Part shown: positions 2,979-9,717 of the stretch, piece after piece
How positions within the stretch are numbered: the first letter of the stretch is position 1
How the letters are laid out: every line of letters begins with the position of its first letter
DNA from: a virus
Strand: one strand, 5' to 3'
IMG/VR virus record: IMGVR_UViG_3300025168_000816
Location: 1 to 21,246 of that record
DNA: 21,246 bases
Position numbers and translations under genes: made by a program
The notes under the pieces: model-generated
Told to the model about the DNA's origin: nothing
The model's input: only the letters and a program-made list of their open reading frames with translations
Database searches by the model: none

Positions 2979-3278
2979 TTAGCCTTCCAGCCAAGTAATA
3001 TTAACCGTAGCAGTTCCGCTGGGGGTAATTGCAGCTACTTCGTCATCTTGAACAACTGTAAAAATGCTAGAATCTGATGAGTTTATCAGCACACCAGCTG
3101 CAACTGTAGCCGTTGGGTCCGCACCAGGACCAATTTTAACAAACACATCTGCGGTTGTAGCAATCCTAACCTTGGTAATCTGTGCTGGGCATCCTCCAGA
3201 ACGAGTTGCTCCAGAGCTAGTTGTAGCAGACAAGTTTTCACTTGAATTTACTCTGTAGTAGTTATTTTGTCGGGCCAT
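2979..3278 (-). CDS. Small virion-associated protein, unknown
   Basis: This is a 99-residue protein with no membrane segment and no charged cluster. From about residue 33 to the end it is a continuous series of short beta strands (KVRIATTADVFVKIG, GVLINSSDSSIFTVV, EVAAITPSGTATVNITWLEG), as expected of a small jelly-roll or decoration/stopper protein. It sits 9 bp after the portal stop and 12 bp before the fibre gene, with AGGAAAG upstream of its ATG, so it belongs to the structural operon. A head decoration, head-tail joining or fibre-adaptor role is only an inference from position and composition. Confidence 0.75.
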   Translation of the reverse strand: MARQNNYYRVNSSENLSATTSSGATRSGGCPAQITKVRIATTADVFVKIGPGADPTATVAAGVLINSSDSSIFTVVQDDEVAAITPSGTATVNITWLEG

Positions 3279-5324: not shown

Positions 5325-6761
5325 TTATACGATCCCTACACTGGAGTACTTGATTTCTTTTTCAAACCCGTATTTCCTGTAGTGCGTTTTGTTCTTCATT
5401 TGTTCTCCAAACCGCTCTATGGAAAGAGAAGCGTATCTCATTGCGCTTATAAGATCGTCTTTAATTGGCACCACTCGTCCATTTTTTCTATGGTAGAGAC
5501 GCATTTCCTCAAGGGTTTCAACACAAGACATAAAAATTTGCAAGCGACCAGTTTCAAAGCGTTGCAACATGACGCTAAGGCCCGCTTCAACAGAGTTATT
5601 ACCATTTAATTTGCCCTCCGTAGGGGGATTGCTAAAGTGATCAGGTAGCATGGATACGCCTAGGTCTCTGTATTGCTGTGCTAACTGTATTCCCGACCCT
5701 TTGTCATGCTGTAACCCATCGTGGGGAAACGCTACTGGTATCCCTGGTGTTCTTGAGTTTAACACAGCTGCGTGAGTCAGTGGTGTTTCTTTGCTTCTCC
5801 GGTGTTCATCGTAGACGTAAATAATATCATCATCTGGATTATAAGCTGTCCAAGAAACTGCGGTAGGGTGGTCATATCCGAAATCAATAGCGGCCAGTTT
5901 TGGATAATAGTCCGGTATCTCAAAGTCTTCACATACAATATCGTCTTCAGATACAGGAAATATTAATCCTGAGCCAAATATGGGTATTCCCCTGGAGCGC
6001 ATGTCCCTTTCAGCAGGGCTATATACTGATAAAAGTTGCTCTTTTGTTTTTTCGTCTAGGTGTTCCACATCGTCCCAGGTTGCTGTTATCAAGCTCTGCC
6101 CAGGCTTTAGATCGTTCATAAAACTGCTTACTACTGACGTCATCCCACGTTCTGGGGTAAAGGTCATGTAAACTATACCATTTGTATCTGCGGTCCTGGT
6201 TATACATTGGGAAAATATTTCCTGCTTAGGTTCCTCATCAAGCCAGACAACATCAATAGCCTCGCCCATAAACTTTTCAAACCCTTGCTCATATGCCTTA
6301 AAACTAATCTGGGAGTTTCCTCCACTCCTATGTTTGACCAATACGCTAGAAAAAGCATTCGGCACTCCTGGTTTACGAACGGTTTCTACAATATTGTCCA
6401 AGGGTACTGCCCCTGTTCCCTTTTTCAAGGGGTCTTGTGGGTTACCAAATAGCTCTTTTTGAATAATGTCTCTTGTAGTGTCGTTTGACTCACCAGCTGC
6501 CCATGCCCTGATAGGCTTGTTAAACCTACGACCTTCCCACCACTCCGGATAGCTACCTGTTAGGTGGTAAGACGTTTCAGCTGCTCCGCAATAGGTTTTC
6601 CCTACTCTGTTTGCAGCCATTAAAATTCTTTGGGCGCAACCTTTACTTTCCAAATGAAACCTAGTTTGGTAATCGTAGGGATCATATTGCTCAATGCGCC
6701 TTGTTTCAAACCGGCGATGTTTTTCCTGGAGCAGCTTTAAAATTTCTTCTTTACTTGCCAC
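5325..6761 (-). CDS. terL: Terminase large subunit (ATPase and nuclease)
   Basis: This 478-residue packaging motor cuts concatemeric DNA and translocates it into the prohead. The ATPase half has a Walker A variant MAANRVGKT at residues 48-56 and a Walker B with catalytic glutamate, IDVVWLDEE, at 169-177, followed by a coupling segment (YMTFTPERG, 198-206). The RNase H-like nuclease half has its first metal-binding aspartate in AIDFGYDH (D293), a central FPHD (346-349) and the final acidic pair in KDDLISAMRYA (435-436). All key residues are present and the length is normal. Its start overlaps the end of terS by 11 bp, so the two are translated together. The short YQxRFHLE segment before Walker A matches T7/P22-type podoviral terminases. 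Confidence 0.95.
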   Translation of the reverse strand: MASKEEILKLLQEKHRRFETRRIEQYDPYDYQTRFHLESKGCAQRILMAANRVGKTYCGAAETSYHLTGSYPEWWEGRRFNKPIRAWAAGESNDTTRDIIQKELFGNPQDPLKKGTGAVPLDNIVETVRKPGVPNAFSSVLVKHRSGGNSQISFKAYEQGFEKFMGEAIDVVWLDEEPKQEIFSQCITRTADTNGIVYMTFTPERGMTSVVSSFMNDLKPGQSLITATWDDVEHLDEKTKEQLLSVYSPAERDMRSRGIPIFGSGLIFPVSEDDIVCEDFEIPDYYPKLAAIDFGYDHPTAVSWTAYNPDDDIIYVYDEHRRSKETPLTHAAVLNSRTPGIPVAFPHDGLQHDKGSGIQLAQQYRDLGVSMLPDHFSNPPTEGKLNGNNSVEAGLSVMLQRFETGRLQIFMSCVETLEEMRLYHRKNGRVVPIKDDLISAMRYASLSIERFGEQMKNKTHYRKYGFEKEIKYSSVGIV

Positions 6762-7209
6762 GCAAAGGCACCACGTTCTCAGAAAGACGCTGGATTTGCT
6801 CGTCTAGCTCATCGTCTGTAAGCTCGGAAATCTCCATAACAACTGTTTCTTGTTTGTGTACAGCGTCGTACCCAGCCCTTGATAAGATATCCCTGGCAGC
6901 GTTTAGTTTAACATTCTCAGAATCAGCTTCTCGCATTAGGCTTTCCAAGACAGACAGGGCAAGGGTTGCCGTCTCGCCTACTTTTTCCTTAATGCGCTTT
7001 TCAATATGGAGCCAAAGGTGCCGCTGTAGCCTTTTGGACCTATGCCCTGCATGAGAGCCTTCAGCTTTGTACCCAGCTGCGTGAAACGCTTGCTCAGGTT
7101 CTAGGTGCTTGTCTACTAACTGGACGACAAACTCATATTCCTTAGAGGTCATCTCTTTGTCTAGGGGCTTTGGGTCTTCGTAGCTGGCAAACTTTCTTGT
7201 TTTCGGCAT
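6751..7209 (-). CDS. terS: Terminase small subunit
   Basis: This 152-residue protein precedes and overlaps terL, the standard place for the DNA-recognition subunit of the packaging terminase. Residues 20-75 are helical with a helix-turn-helix-like stretch (EYEFVVQLVDKHLEPEQAFHAAGYKAEG) resembling the DNA-binding region of phage small terminases. Basic helices (RSKRLQRHLWLHIEKRIKEK) follow, then a long central helix with LNAARDILSRAGYDAVHKQE, a pattern seen in many TerS proteins. The tail is acidic, then basic (LTDDELDEQIQRLSENVVPLRGK). The predicted late promoter lies about 100 bp upstream. The upstream ribosome site is weak (GAG 9 nt before ATG), so coupling to the small upstream ORF at 7161-7298 is possible. 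Confidence 0.85.
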   Translation of the reverse strand: MPKTRKFASYEDPKPLDKEMTSKEYEFVVQLVDKHLEPEQAFHAAGYKAEGSHAGHRSKRLQRHLWLHIEKRIKEKVGETATLALSVLESLMREADSENVKLNAARDILSRAGYDAVHKQETVVMEISELTDDELDEQIQRLSENVVPLRGK

Positions 7210-7333: not shown

Positions 7334-7437
7334 TAGGTTTTCAAAATGTCCCCCGGAATGAACGCACTGGACTATAAAGTAATTAGCTACCACCGGGGGG
7401 GTCGCGTTCTCTCTTTGTTCCTGGTTTGTCCAAGGTT

Positions 7438-7488
7438 GAGAACAAAACGTGAACAAAAGCAGATTCGACAAGAGAACAAAACGTGAAC
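7438..7488. repeat. 17-bp direct repeat of GAAC boxes
   Basis: The 17-mer GAGAACAAAACGTGAAC occurs identically at 7438-7454 and 7472-7488, a 34-bp period. Within each copy GAAC recurs at an 11-bp step, so the boxes lie on one face of the helix. Related GTTC boxes in inverse orientation occur at 7406 and 7417. The pattern suits a protein-binding array between the late promoter and the rest of the control region. The binding protein is unknown. Confidence 0.7.
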
Positions 7489-7496
7489 GCCCAATG

Positions 7497-7618
7497 GTGT
7501 GACAAATTTGCAACACTGTTGCTTATACATCACTGTTGCAATAGTGTCACAGTGTTGCGCTCGGGCAACAGTGTGACAATTGTGTAACACTACTGTTGCA
7601 ATAGTGTCACAGTGTTGC
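7497..7618. repeat. 27-bp direct repeat with inverted TGTGACA/TGTCACA boxes
   Basis: A 27-bp sequence beginning ACTGTTGCAATAGTGTCACA is repeated exactly at 7532-7558 and 7592-7618 (60-bp period). Each copy is preceded by GTGTGACAA (7497, 7571), giving alternating TGTGACA (7498-7504, 7572-7578) and TGTCACA (7545-7551, 7605-7611) boxes in inverted arrangement. A 13-bp near-palindrome GCAACACTGTTGC lies at 7510-7522. Two diverged copies of a roughly 50-60 bp unit are thus visible. It could be an origin iteron array or an operator for a dimeric regulator. It is not a CRISPR: only two copies and no leader or cas genes. Confidence 0.75.
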
Positions 7619-7690
7619 AGGATTGCTACAAATATTTTAAAAGTGTGCGCGTGTGTGCCGATTGAACATAGTTTGGCATTGAAATTGCAT

Positions 7691-7736: not shown

Positions 7737-8002
7737 CATATGGTCCTAAAACGCTCTAGGAAGCCCACTGGTGCGCGTTGGCGACAGGCTACCTAGGGTA
7801 TGTAAAAATAAACTGAGCGAATGTAGCATAGTTGGCATGGCGTTTGCTTAGACAAATATCATGCCAGGATAATGTACGCAACGAAATAGCGCCTAAACTG
7901 GTTCCGGATATTATTTTTGAGTTAGCACTTGAAACAGATGTAAGGCGCACCATGTATATATAGAGACAATAGGCAGCAACCAGAGAAGAAAAGGAAAACA
8001 AG

Positions 8003-8220: not shown

Positions 8221-8424
8221 ATGGCTAAATTGGTAAAAACGGCAGGCTTAAACGACGGCACCAGTGGCAAGCGGTTCGCCTGGGGATTGTATCGCGTTCG
8301 GGCTGTTAAGTCTCGATGGGGTATCACTACGGGCCCGACCATGACCGGCATCCATGCTGGCCGTCGCTCGCTCTATGTAGAGCGCAAAGCAGCGGTCCGA
8401 CACTTGCACCACTTCGCAGGTTGA
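8221..8424 (+). CDS. Hypothetical small basic protein
   Basis: This protein has 67 residues and is strongly basic (many K and R, few acidic residues), starting MAKLVKTAGLNDGTSGKRFAWG. The ribosome site GGAGG lies about 6-7 bases before the ATG. It uses more GC-rich codons than the gene before it. Its stop codon lies inside the first arm of the hairpin at 8421-8467, so translation would reach into that structure. No recognised domain. A nucleic-acid-binding role is possible from its charge but not shown. Confidence 0.6.
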   Translation: MAKLVKTAGLNDGTSGKRFAWGLYRVRAVKSRWGITTGPTMTGIHAGRRSLYVERKAAVRHLHHFAG

Positions 8425-8467
8425 TACAACGGAGCGCCGGGGCAATCCTGGCGTTCTATTGTATCAA
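8421..8467 (+). other. Leader hairpin, copy 1
   Basis: Arms TTGATACAA (8421-8429) and TTGTATCAA (8459-8467) pair perfectly. Inside them GAGCGCC (8432-8438) pairs with GGCGTTC (8450-8456), giving a stem of about 17 pairs around an 11-nt loop. The stem ends immediately before the ribosome site GAGGA of the gene at 8485. A homologous element lies at 9163-9208 before another gene. No T-tract follows, so it is not an intrinsic terminator. An RNA processing site, mRNA stabiliser or translation control element are the plausible roles. Confidence 0.7.
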
Positions 8468-8484
8468 TCGAGGACTATCAGATA

Positions 8485-9162
8485 ATGACAACTTTAAAGC
8501 AAACCCATGCGGCCATAATCGACAGTCGCACAATGTACAGCAAGAATGTGCATACCCTTGACACTTATGCACACAAGGCCTTGAAGCCTTCGACTAATAA
8601 AAAGCTAGGTCGCAAGGTTACCAAGGGCAAACTTGCCGGTATACCTATCTATACCTTAACCCTGGAAGAACGTAAGACATGCGACAGCGCTTGTGAGCAT
8701 TGGCTAGACTGTTATGGAAACAATATGCCATTTGCACACCGTATCGACACTACTGGCCTCGAAGCTCGCCTAGAGACAGAACTGGACACGTTAGACAGCA
8801 AGCACAAGCGAGGCTACTTGGTCCGTCTACATGTCCTAGGTGACTTCTATTCTGCTGACTATGTTACATTCTGGCAAGCCCAAGTTACCAAGCGCGATAA
8901 GTTGCACGTCTATGGCTATTCCAGACATCATCCAGGGAAGCCCGTAGGTGACGCCCTACGCCACGCCCGTAGTGTCCTAGGCTTCAATCGCTTTGCTATC
9001 AGGTTCTCTACATTGCCAAGTGACAACTTATCTGCGAACACAATTCACAACACTACCAAGGATGCTATTACCTGCCCGGTCCAGCTAGACAAAACAGACA
9101 ATTGTGGCACATGCTCACTATGTTGGACCGTCCAGAAACCCATAACATTCCTTGATCACTAG
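8485..9162 (+). CDS. Cysteine-rich phage protein, Gp88-like
   Basis: This 225-residue protein resembles the phage 'gene product 88' family of unknown function. A TCDSACEHWLDCYG segment has C66-x3-C70-x5-C76. A conserved RLHVLGDFYSADYVTFW core lies at residues 114-130, then HVYGYSRHHPGKP (141-153). A second cysteine set is at C197, C207, C210 and C213 (GTCSLCW). The spacing suggests Zn or Fe-S binding; it is not the radical-SAM CxxxCxxC motif. Start ATG with GAGGA 10 nt upstream and the 8421-8467 hairpin just before it. The gene is longer and better conserved in appearance than its neighbours. No enzyme activity can be assigned. The family call is from motif memory. Confidence 0.75.
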   Translation: MTTLKQTHAAIIDSRTMYSKNVHTLDTYAHKALKPSTNKKLGRKVTKGKLAGIPIYTLTLEERKTCDSACEHWLDCYGNNMPFAHRIDTTGLEARLETELDTLDSKHKRGYLVRLHVLGDFYSADYVTFWQAQVTKRDKLHVYGYSRHHPGKPVGDALRHARSVLGFNRFAIRFSTLPSDNLSANTIHNTTKDAITCPVQLDKTDNCGTCSLCWTVQKPITFLDH

Positions 9163-9208
9163 TTGACACAACGGAGCGCATGGTATAACATGCTCTCTAG
9201 TGTATCAA
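9163..9208 (+). other. Leader hairpin, copy 2
   Basis: The element begins TTGACACAACGGAGCGCATG and ends TAGTGTATCAA. It pairs into an imperfect stem with the same outer arms and ACGGAGCGC segment as copy 1 at 8421-8467. Several stem positions differ in the two copies yet still pair (inner GAGCGCC/GGCGTTC versus GAGCGCAT/ATGCTCTC). It directly precedes GGAGG and the ATG at 9224. It also contains TTGACA (9163-9168) and TATAAC (9184-9189), only 15 apart, so a weak promoter cannot be excluded. Confidence 0.65.
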
Positions 9209-9223
9209 TTGGAGGATTAGACA

Positions 9224-9430
9224 ATGCATAGTTTAAAAGACAATCAGTTAGTGGTGTTTGAACACCTACGACAATTTCTAGAAGCGACAATTGAGGGCAT
9301 GTATCCACTCAGTAGCAAGCATGTGGCTAGAATATACACTGAAGAGATACTAGACTACGCATACGTTCCAATTTGCGAACTTGCAGACGACATCGAAGCA
9401 ACAGAAAAGACCAATCCAGACATTTATTAA
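9224..9430 (+). CDS. Hypothetical small acidic protein
   Basis: The gene encodes 68 residues, starting MHSLKDNQLVVFEHLRQF, mostly helical with an acidic C-terminal part (CELADDIEATEKTNPDIY). The ribosome site GGAGG is 8 nt before the ATG, right after leader hairpin copy 2. No known domain is recognised. It lies between two regulated leaders and is followed by the promoter and palindromes of 9441-9538, so it may be the last gene of the first early transcript. Confidence 0.6.
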   Translation: MHSLKDNQLVVFEHLRQFLEATIEGMYPLSSKHVARIYTEEILDYAYVPICELADDIEATEKTNPDIY

Positions 9431-9440
9431 TTCTTACCCC

Positions 9441-9470
9441 TTGACAATCGACAGTGTCGTACTATATTAT
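9441..9470 (+). promoter_or_regulatory. sigma70-type promoter for genes from 9559
   Basis: The -35 box TTGACA (9441-9446) is perfect. The -10 is TATATT (9463-9468, spacing 16) or TATTAT (9465-9470, spacing 18). A start near 9475-9478 falls in the first CTCTATAGAG palindrome, so the array just downstream is well placed to repress it. It lies in the only sizeable intergenic gap (128 bp) of the early arm after 9163. Confidence 0.7.
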
Positions 9471-9471
9471 A

Positions 9472-9538
9472 CTCTATAGAGTACACAATAGAGATATTAA
9501 TAAAGTTACACTGTAGCTCTATAGAGTACTCTATAGAG
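9472..9538. promoter_or_regulatory. Operator-like array of CTCTATAGAG palindromes
   Basis: The 10-bp palindrome CTCTATAGAG occurs three times: 9472-9481, 9517-9526 and 9529-9538. The last two, joined by TA, form a perfect 22-bp palindrome, and the first is extended to TACTCTATAGAGTA. They overlap the transcription start of the 9441 promoter and reach to the ribosome site GGAGGAGG of the next gene. The arrangement is what a dimeric repressor would bind. In RNA the 22-mer would also form a short hairpin ahead of the ribosome site. No candidate repressor gene is evident. Confidence 0.7.
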
Positions 9539-9558
9539 ACCCACCGGAGGAGGATAAA

Positions 9559-9717
9559 ATGAGATGCGCTATTTGTGACGCAAAACTACCAGACAATCAG
9601 CCATTGGAGAACGATATCTGTTCTGTTTGTCGAAATGCCATACGCCAAGCGTTTACCTATGAAATCGAAGAGGACGACAATATTCAATGTTTGCAGGACT
9701 TGTCGGAAAACTATTAA
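9559..9717 (+). CDS. Small zinc-finger-like protein
   Basis: A 52-residue protein starts MRCAICDAKLPDNQPLENDI and has two CxxC pairs (C3-C6 and C21-C24), the spacing of a small zinc ribbon. The tail is acidic (EIEEDDNIQCLQDLSENY). The ribosome site GGAGGAGG lies just upstream of the ATG at 9559, the strongest in this region. It follows the operator array and is the first gene of that transcript. Such Zn-knuckle miniproteins recur in marine phages, and many interact with nucleic acids or host transcription, but this one has no assigned role. Confidence 0.75.
   Translation: MRCAICDAKLPDNQPLENDICSVCRNAIRQAFTYEIEEDDNIQCLQDLSENY

Follow-up and report, generated by a model that had tools for sequence, protein, structure and literature searches.

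The window, which is the whole stretch of DNA analysed here, is a virus record of 21,246 bases and probably an incomplete piece of a virus genome. Leftward genes lie on its left, among them those for an SU10-type portal and a terminase, and rightward genes lie on its right, among them those for a T7-like primase-helicase and DNA polymerase A. The terminase is nearest to those of Vibrio podophages (53-56%), the DNA polymerase A to those of Pelagibacter phages (40%), and the GP88-like protein has relatives in roseophages (41%); no DNA matches to named phages were found. Near the start of the rightward arm there is a block of small rightward genes with two hairpins, in the order 67-aa gene, hairpin, GP88-like gene, hairpin, 68-aa gene. 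The 67-aa gene (MAKLV...HFAG*, family F2; 8221-8424, plus strand) has no match in Pfam. The GP88-like protein of 225 aa (8485-9162, plus strand; Pfam PF17338, GP88, E 6e-6) is of a kind encoded by many IMG/VR contigs and corresponds to gp1 in named roseophages. The 68-aa gene (MHSLKDN..., family F3) follows at 9224-9430 on the same strand.

Two other regions near this block carry regulatory-looking sequence. The region at 9441-9539 has a strong sigma-70-like promoter (TTGACA-N16/18-TATATT/TATTAT), and two palindromes of the CTCTATAGAGTAC type stand between it and the gene that starts at 9575; this arrangement is kept in relatives of the group and looks like a promoter with operators. The divergent intergenic region at 7437-7624 holds two GAGAACAAAACGTGAAC repeats and several CAAYRGTGTGACAA...ACACT-type repeats, which are possibly an origin or repressor sites, and a perfect TTGACA-17-TATAAT promoter lies beside them on the minus strand (7333-7305).

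The two hairpins had been proposed from the sequence by the initial annotation, and folding confirms both of them. Copy 1 (8421-8467, plus strand, 47 nt) consists of a lower stem (8421-8429/8459-8467), an internal loop (8430-8431/8457-8458), an upper stem (8432-8441/8447-8456) and an apical loop (8442-8446). Its RNA folds at -34.8 kcal/mol (z -7.0). Copy 2 (9163-9208, plus strand, 46 nt) has a weaker lower stem (9163-9171/9200-9208) and an internal loop at 9172-9173/9198-9199, and folds at -24.2 kcal/mol (z -4.5); for neither copy did any of 200 shuffles equal these values. The covariance model R1 scores them at 64.5 bits (E 2.8e-12) and 57.4 bits (E 1.7e-10), both copies being seeds of the model. 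The two copies have the 5' arm TTGAYACAACGGAGCGC in common, which matches exactly at these two places only within the window, where 0.13 matches with up to three mismatches are expected by chance.

Both hairpins lie directly between a stop codon and a ribosome site. The TGA stop of the 67-aa gene (8422-8424) is inside the 5' arm of copy 1, and the TAG stop of the GP88-like gene (9160-9162) abuts copy 2. Copy 1 is followed by the leader TCGAGGACTATCAGATA (8468-8484), with a Shine-Dalgarno GAGG at 8470-8473 and ATG at 8485, and copy 2 by the leader TTGGAGGATTAGACA (9209-9223), with GGAGG at 9211-9215 and ATG at 9224, which gives stem-to-ATG distances of 17 nt and 15 nt. The claim that each hairpin ends at a ribosome site is therefore borne out. 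The further claim that differing stem positions still pair holds less well for these two sequences, since copy 2 has C.A and A.G mismatches in its lower stem and a C.U in place of one upper-stem pair. The copies of the window alone are thus weak evidence for covariation, whereas the family as a whole provides strong evidence.

Distribution, fold and covariation of the hairpin family

The initial annotation had suggested that further copies and covariation be sought in relatives, and both were found. Our first scan of IMG/VR used the 5' arm alone as the query and left the 3' arm free. It matched 13 contigs, and in 10 of them a complementary 3' arm and a ribosome site were present at every one of 11 matches, the remaining three contigs being chance matches. 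The set was then enlarged by further patterns and by GP88-bearing relatives. The covariance model detects the hairpin in 27 other IMG/VR contigs of the same phage group, with at most four copies per contig, and in one unrelated phage, L014. Apart from L014, the hairpin-bearing contigs are close relatives, with a GP88 identity of 76% or more wherever they carry the gene. L014 is a podophage with a different portal and an ArdC-like protein, and no GP88 was found on its contig. Its single hairpin (3160-3204, minus strand) has the family core CAACGGAGCGC...GCGTTCTATTG, a lower stem that differs in sequence yet pairs, a TAG stop at its base and a ribosome site on its 3' side. No relatives of L014 carrying the hairpin were found; the copy suggests either horizontal movement or a shared recognition factor.

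Beyond these phages the model gave no match in phages with a GP88 of no more than 63% identity, in roseophages CRP-114 and CRP-361, in Pelagibacter phage HTVC115P, in Vibrio phages BA6 and 1.262.O, or in Lucius and 45A6. No Rfam family scored above its gathering score (best 17.8 bits against a cut-off of 45), and a pattern of the exact core gave six chance matches and no full hairpin in 84,980 bacterial genomes. Core matches in L001, L008, L013, L015-L026, L070 and other IMG/VR contigs lack the fold and were rejected as chance.

All 40 distinct copies form 18-20 pairs within 46-49 nt. The plan of the family is a lower stem of 9 bp and an upper stem of 9-11 bp on either side of a 2x2 internal loop, most often C.A and G.U; the upper stem is 99.5% paired when folded in its mRNA context. 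Among 39 distinct copies, 95.4% of the helix is paired and 11 pairs show double changes; double-change cells number 51, whereas shuffles give 14.7 and slid controls no more than 12, and all pairing measures lie above 500 shuffles and every slid control. These counts are inflated, since some copies were chosen for their pairing and several are related. A cleaner set was therefore chosen by position: for each 67-aa homologue, whatever sequence lies 3' of its stop codon. This set holds 15 distinct sequences; they are 97.4% paired, and double-change cells number 26 where shuffles give 10.5. Together the shuffles, the slid-pair controls and the position-chosen copies rule out a chance origin of the hairpins. 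The internal loop (columns 10-11 with 39-40) remains mostly non-Watson-Crick, only 7 of 78 cells being Watson-Crick, though its letters change.

The changes also differ by strand. Outside the internal loop and column 5, G.U is found in 46 cells and A.C in 4, and the plus strand gives the more stable fold in 32 of the 40 distinct hairpins. Tolerance of G.U but not of A.C indicates that selection acts on the sense RNA, and this asymmetry and the strand stability favour an RNA hairpin rather than a DNA palindrome.

Position of the hairpin and gene exchange at its joints

The placement seen in copy 1 is the common one. Of 42 distinct junctions, 25 have the upstream stop codon at hairpin nucleotides 2-4 (offset 1), reading T followed by TGA, TAA or TAG, with the 3' arm mostly altered to match, and in 7 more the stop codon ends immediately 5' of the hairpin. 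On the other side a leader of 14-25 nt, with the Shine-Dalgarno site in it, separates the hairpin from the start codon. The view of the hairpins as leader elements of the adjacent genes is thus half right: they do precede a ribosome site, but they usually start inside the upstream stop codon, and all intact 67-aa homologues found in the group have a hairpin after them. After GP88, some group members carry a copy and others do not. In more distant phages that lack the element, the same joint is a stop codon adjoining a ribosome site, such as CTAGGAGGTTATCATG in L161.

The genes that meet at these joints vary. Depending on the relative, the 67-aa gene and its hairpin are followed by GP88 or by a gene beginning MERECELN, MDYSK, MTLEL, MWYLG, MSKRD, MHSLK, MNTIR or MYFTR, and GP88 and its hairpin by one beginning MHSLK, MTLEL, MEREC or MDYSK. 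L003 has GP88 and the 67-aa gene in inverted order, again with a hairpin at each joint. The leader sequence tracks the downstream gene (0 of 2000 permutations). The whole hairpin does so less strongly (p 0.0045), and its loop tracks both neighbouring genes. The alternative that the hairpin sequence follows the upstream gene was not borne out (p 0.13). This gene variety and the tracking by the leader fit cassette exchange at the hairpin joints, and the presence of one upstream gene and hairpin before different genes in different relatives fits the earlier suggestion of small modules spread between genes. A formal test for an excess of hairpins at variable joints was flat, on ORF calls that include spurious frames.

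Proposed function and rival readings

Our preferred reading, to which we give about even credence, is that the hairpins are a dispersed intercistronic RNA element, a site of mRNA processing or 3'-end protection that doubles as a joint for gene cassettes. A processing or protective function is inferred from the fold, covariation and sense-strand preference of the family, its place from stop codon to ribosome site, its multiple copies, the gene swapping and the analogues described below. Support for processing or protection comes from the length of the duplex (about 20 bp), from its internal loop, from the place of the element and from the precedent of T7. The sense mRNA would fold as a rod of about 20 bp whose lower stem usually includes the upstream stop codon. 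A host endonuclease of the RNase III type might then cut at or near the internal loop, or alternatively the rod might block 3'-exonucleases. Small early genes would in this way be split into individual messages, each with a short and clean ribosome leader, in the manner of the T7 R-sites, and copies of the TTGACA type may additionally carry a weak promoter. Since the element spans the whole intergenic space and is common to many joints, it could also provide homology for the swapping of gene cassettes. We speculate that it may explain how some environmental phages swap small early genes with expression intact: a gene ends in or before a standard hairpin, and the next gene starts with a standard leader.

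The T7 comparison has its likenesses and its limits. R1.1 of T7, which lies between genes 1.0 and 1.1, forms a hairpin of 60 nt whose internal loop is cut by RNase III (PMC6121014), and the enzyme cuts T7 early mRNA at five such sites (PMC4858673). The hairpins described here are likewise rods of about 20 bp that lie between early cistrons and have an internal loop. However, the loop of R1.1 is asymmetric (4/5 nt) while the predicted one here is a symmetric 2x2, and our family repeats a near-identical core and holds the stop codon inside the stem. A further point against it is that the duplexes required by an alphaproteobacterial RNase III were longer than those of its E. coli counterpart (PMC6121014). 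The conserved core letters CAACGGAG...YTCTATTG, which are present in the unrelated L014 as well, suggest recognition by sequence; such conservation appears to exceed the generic needs of RNase III and counts against plain processing by this enzyme.

Processing alone also leaves unexplained a TTGACA-N17-TA motif embedded in many copies, such as TTGACA-N17-TAACAT at 9163-9191 (plus strand) in copy 2. This motif raises a rival that we consider possible but rather doubtful, namely that the 46-nt element is a composite of a sigma-70 promoter (TTGACA-N17-TANNNT) and a stem-loop. The transcript would start in the 3' arm, so that every downstream gene had a short-leader message of its own, and the hairpin would act on read-through transcripts. 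A TA exactly 17 nt on is found in 24 of 25 TTGACA-type copies, where 2.5 are expected from shuffled loops, and in 8 of 15 other copies (Fisher p 0.002, a value overstated by the relatedness of the copies). TTGACA is retained even where this breaks the pair 5-45 (16 C.A cells), and TTGACA-type promoters are used elsewhere by these phages (9441-9470). On the other hand, 15 of 40 distinct copies have TTGATA, TTAATA, TTAAAA or TTAGCA instead without losing the hairpin, the -10 region is matched weakly (3-4 of 6), and the TA in the loop could be a loop preference. The composite would, moreover, leave the covariation and the stop-codon overlap unexplained. We therefore keep processing or protection as the preferred function, with an embedded promoter as a possible added function of the TTGACA class.

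Because the stop codon sits in the stem of most copies, with a ribosome site within about 10 nt, the hairpin could also act in translation: a terminating ribosome would melt the 5' arm and aid the next start, or the hairpin would gate the ribosome site. We regard this as unlikely. The predicted probability that the Shine-Dalgarno site is unpaired is 0.46 with the hairpin and 0.49 without it (p 0.29), which leaves the translation switch of the initial annotation unsupported; nor was any conserved pairing with the Shine-Dalgarno site seen, and the same genes occur elsewhere without a hairpin.

That the hairpin is a mobile or selfish element of the REP or MITE kind, or purely a DNA recombination site, whose position is merely tolerated, seems improbable to us. 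Its multiple copies, its presence and absence at orthologous joints, the copy in the unrelated L014 and the variety of genes on its two sides would suit such a view, but the copies examined are all in sense orientation and all between a stop codon and a ribosome site, the strong asymmetry of G.U over A.C points to selection at the RNA level, and no mobilising enzyme gene was seen nearby. REP elements of bacterial genomes are dispersed short imperfect palindromes with conserved mismatches that lie between genes. The hairpins here differ from them in being strictly oriented, always placed from stop codon to ribosome site, and carried by phages, with no RAYT-type transposase seen. An intrinsic transcription terminator between the genes, which a stable GC-rich intergenic stem might suggest, is very improbable, since no copy has a T-tract after the stem, as the initial annotation had observed for the two in the window, and neither of these is called as a terminator.

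Related and look-alike elements

In the open-licence literature we found no description of this hairpin element, and its closest known kinds appear to be PeSLs and ESAS. The PeSLs (promoter early stem-loops) of T4-type phages are described, in a text that cites the original work, as regulatory stem-loop cassettes that recur among small early genes and are associated with the shuffling of genes (Arbiol 2010 and Comeau 2014, as cited in PMC4503421). Our hairpins are similar in being repeated stem-loops between small early genes, and one class of them holds a promoter-like TTGACA-N17-TA. They differ from PeSLs as described there in that the phages are not T4-type, the internal loop is conserved, the stop codon is built into the 5' arm, no copy is followed by a terminator T-tract, and the promoter-like motif is inside the stem and missing from many copies. 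The SAS/ESAS of cluster K mycobacteriophages include imperfect inverted repeats just 5' of start sites; ESAS accompany a subset of non-structural genes, several per genome, and the consensus of their inverted repeats differs between subclusters (PMC3203893). An inverted repeat just upstream of the start sites of several genes is found here too. In contrast, the repeat sequences are unrelated, and the part of that paper on SAS/ESAS mentions no overlap with stop codons (PMC3203893). The 13-bp SAS, GGGATAGGAGCCC, is absent from the window, which has one match with three mismatches where 3.0 are expected by chance. With both the T-tract terminator and the SAS sequence missing, the hairpin is filed under neither PeSL nor SAS/ESAS.

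The geometry and place of the hairpin recur in other phages although the sequence differs, as judged from structure scans, so that part of the pairing in these analogues reflects the way they were picked. L197 (GP88 46%, 67-aa homologue 41%) has two hairpins of 9 bp, a 2x2 loop and at least 9 bp whose sequence is unlike that of the family. They lie at 7460-7510 and 7930-7978, both from stop codon to ribosome site, one after the stop of the 67-aa homologue and the other before GP88. L161-L165 (GP88 62-63%) carry a separate, unrelated hairpin family with a TAATTAAT lower stem at the same intergenic position. Its members were found in L161 at 514-570, 719-775, 1522-1580, 1705-1765, 2920-2977 and 8333-8384, one of them directly before GP88, in L163 at 6649-6703, 7128-7185 and 7433-7490, and in L164 at 7434-7494 and 9061-9112.

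We tentatively propose that this TAATTAAT family, the L197 pair and the family of the window may belong to one general class in environmental phages. Such stop-anchored intercistronic hairpins, of about 8-9 bp, a small internal loop and about 11 bp between a stop codon and a ribosome site, would process or protect polycistronic early mRNA and join gene cassettes, with a promoter folded into the 46 nt in one class. The same geometry across unrelated sequences points to a conserved host factor, for which RNase III is the obvious candidate, and the covariance model of our family can be used for finding the host and further copies. Within the TAATTAAT family several hairpins start at the stop codon, two in L161 with TAA itself. 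Most copies have one or two mismatches, and the apical loop GTTCTTACGAAC is frequent among those of L161. Almost every copy has its own upper stem of about 10-11 bp (8 different), and 88 of 90 cells are paired, against 51.6 after the arms are re-dealt.
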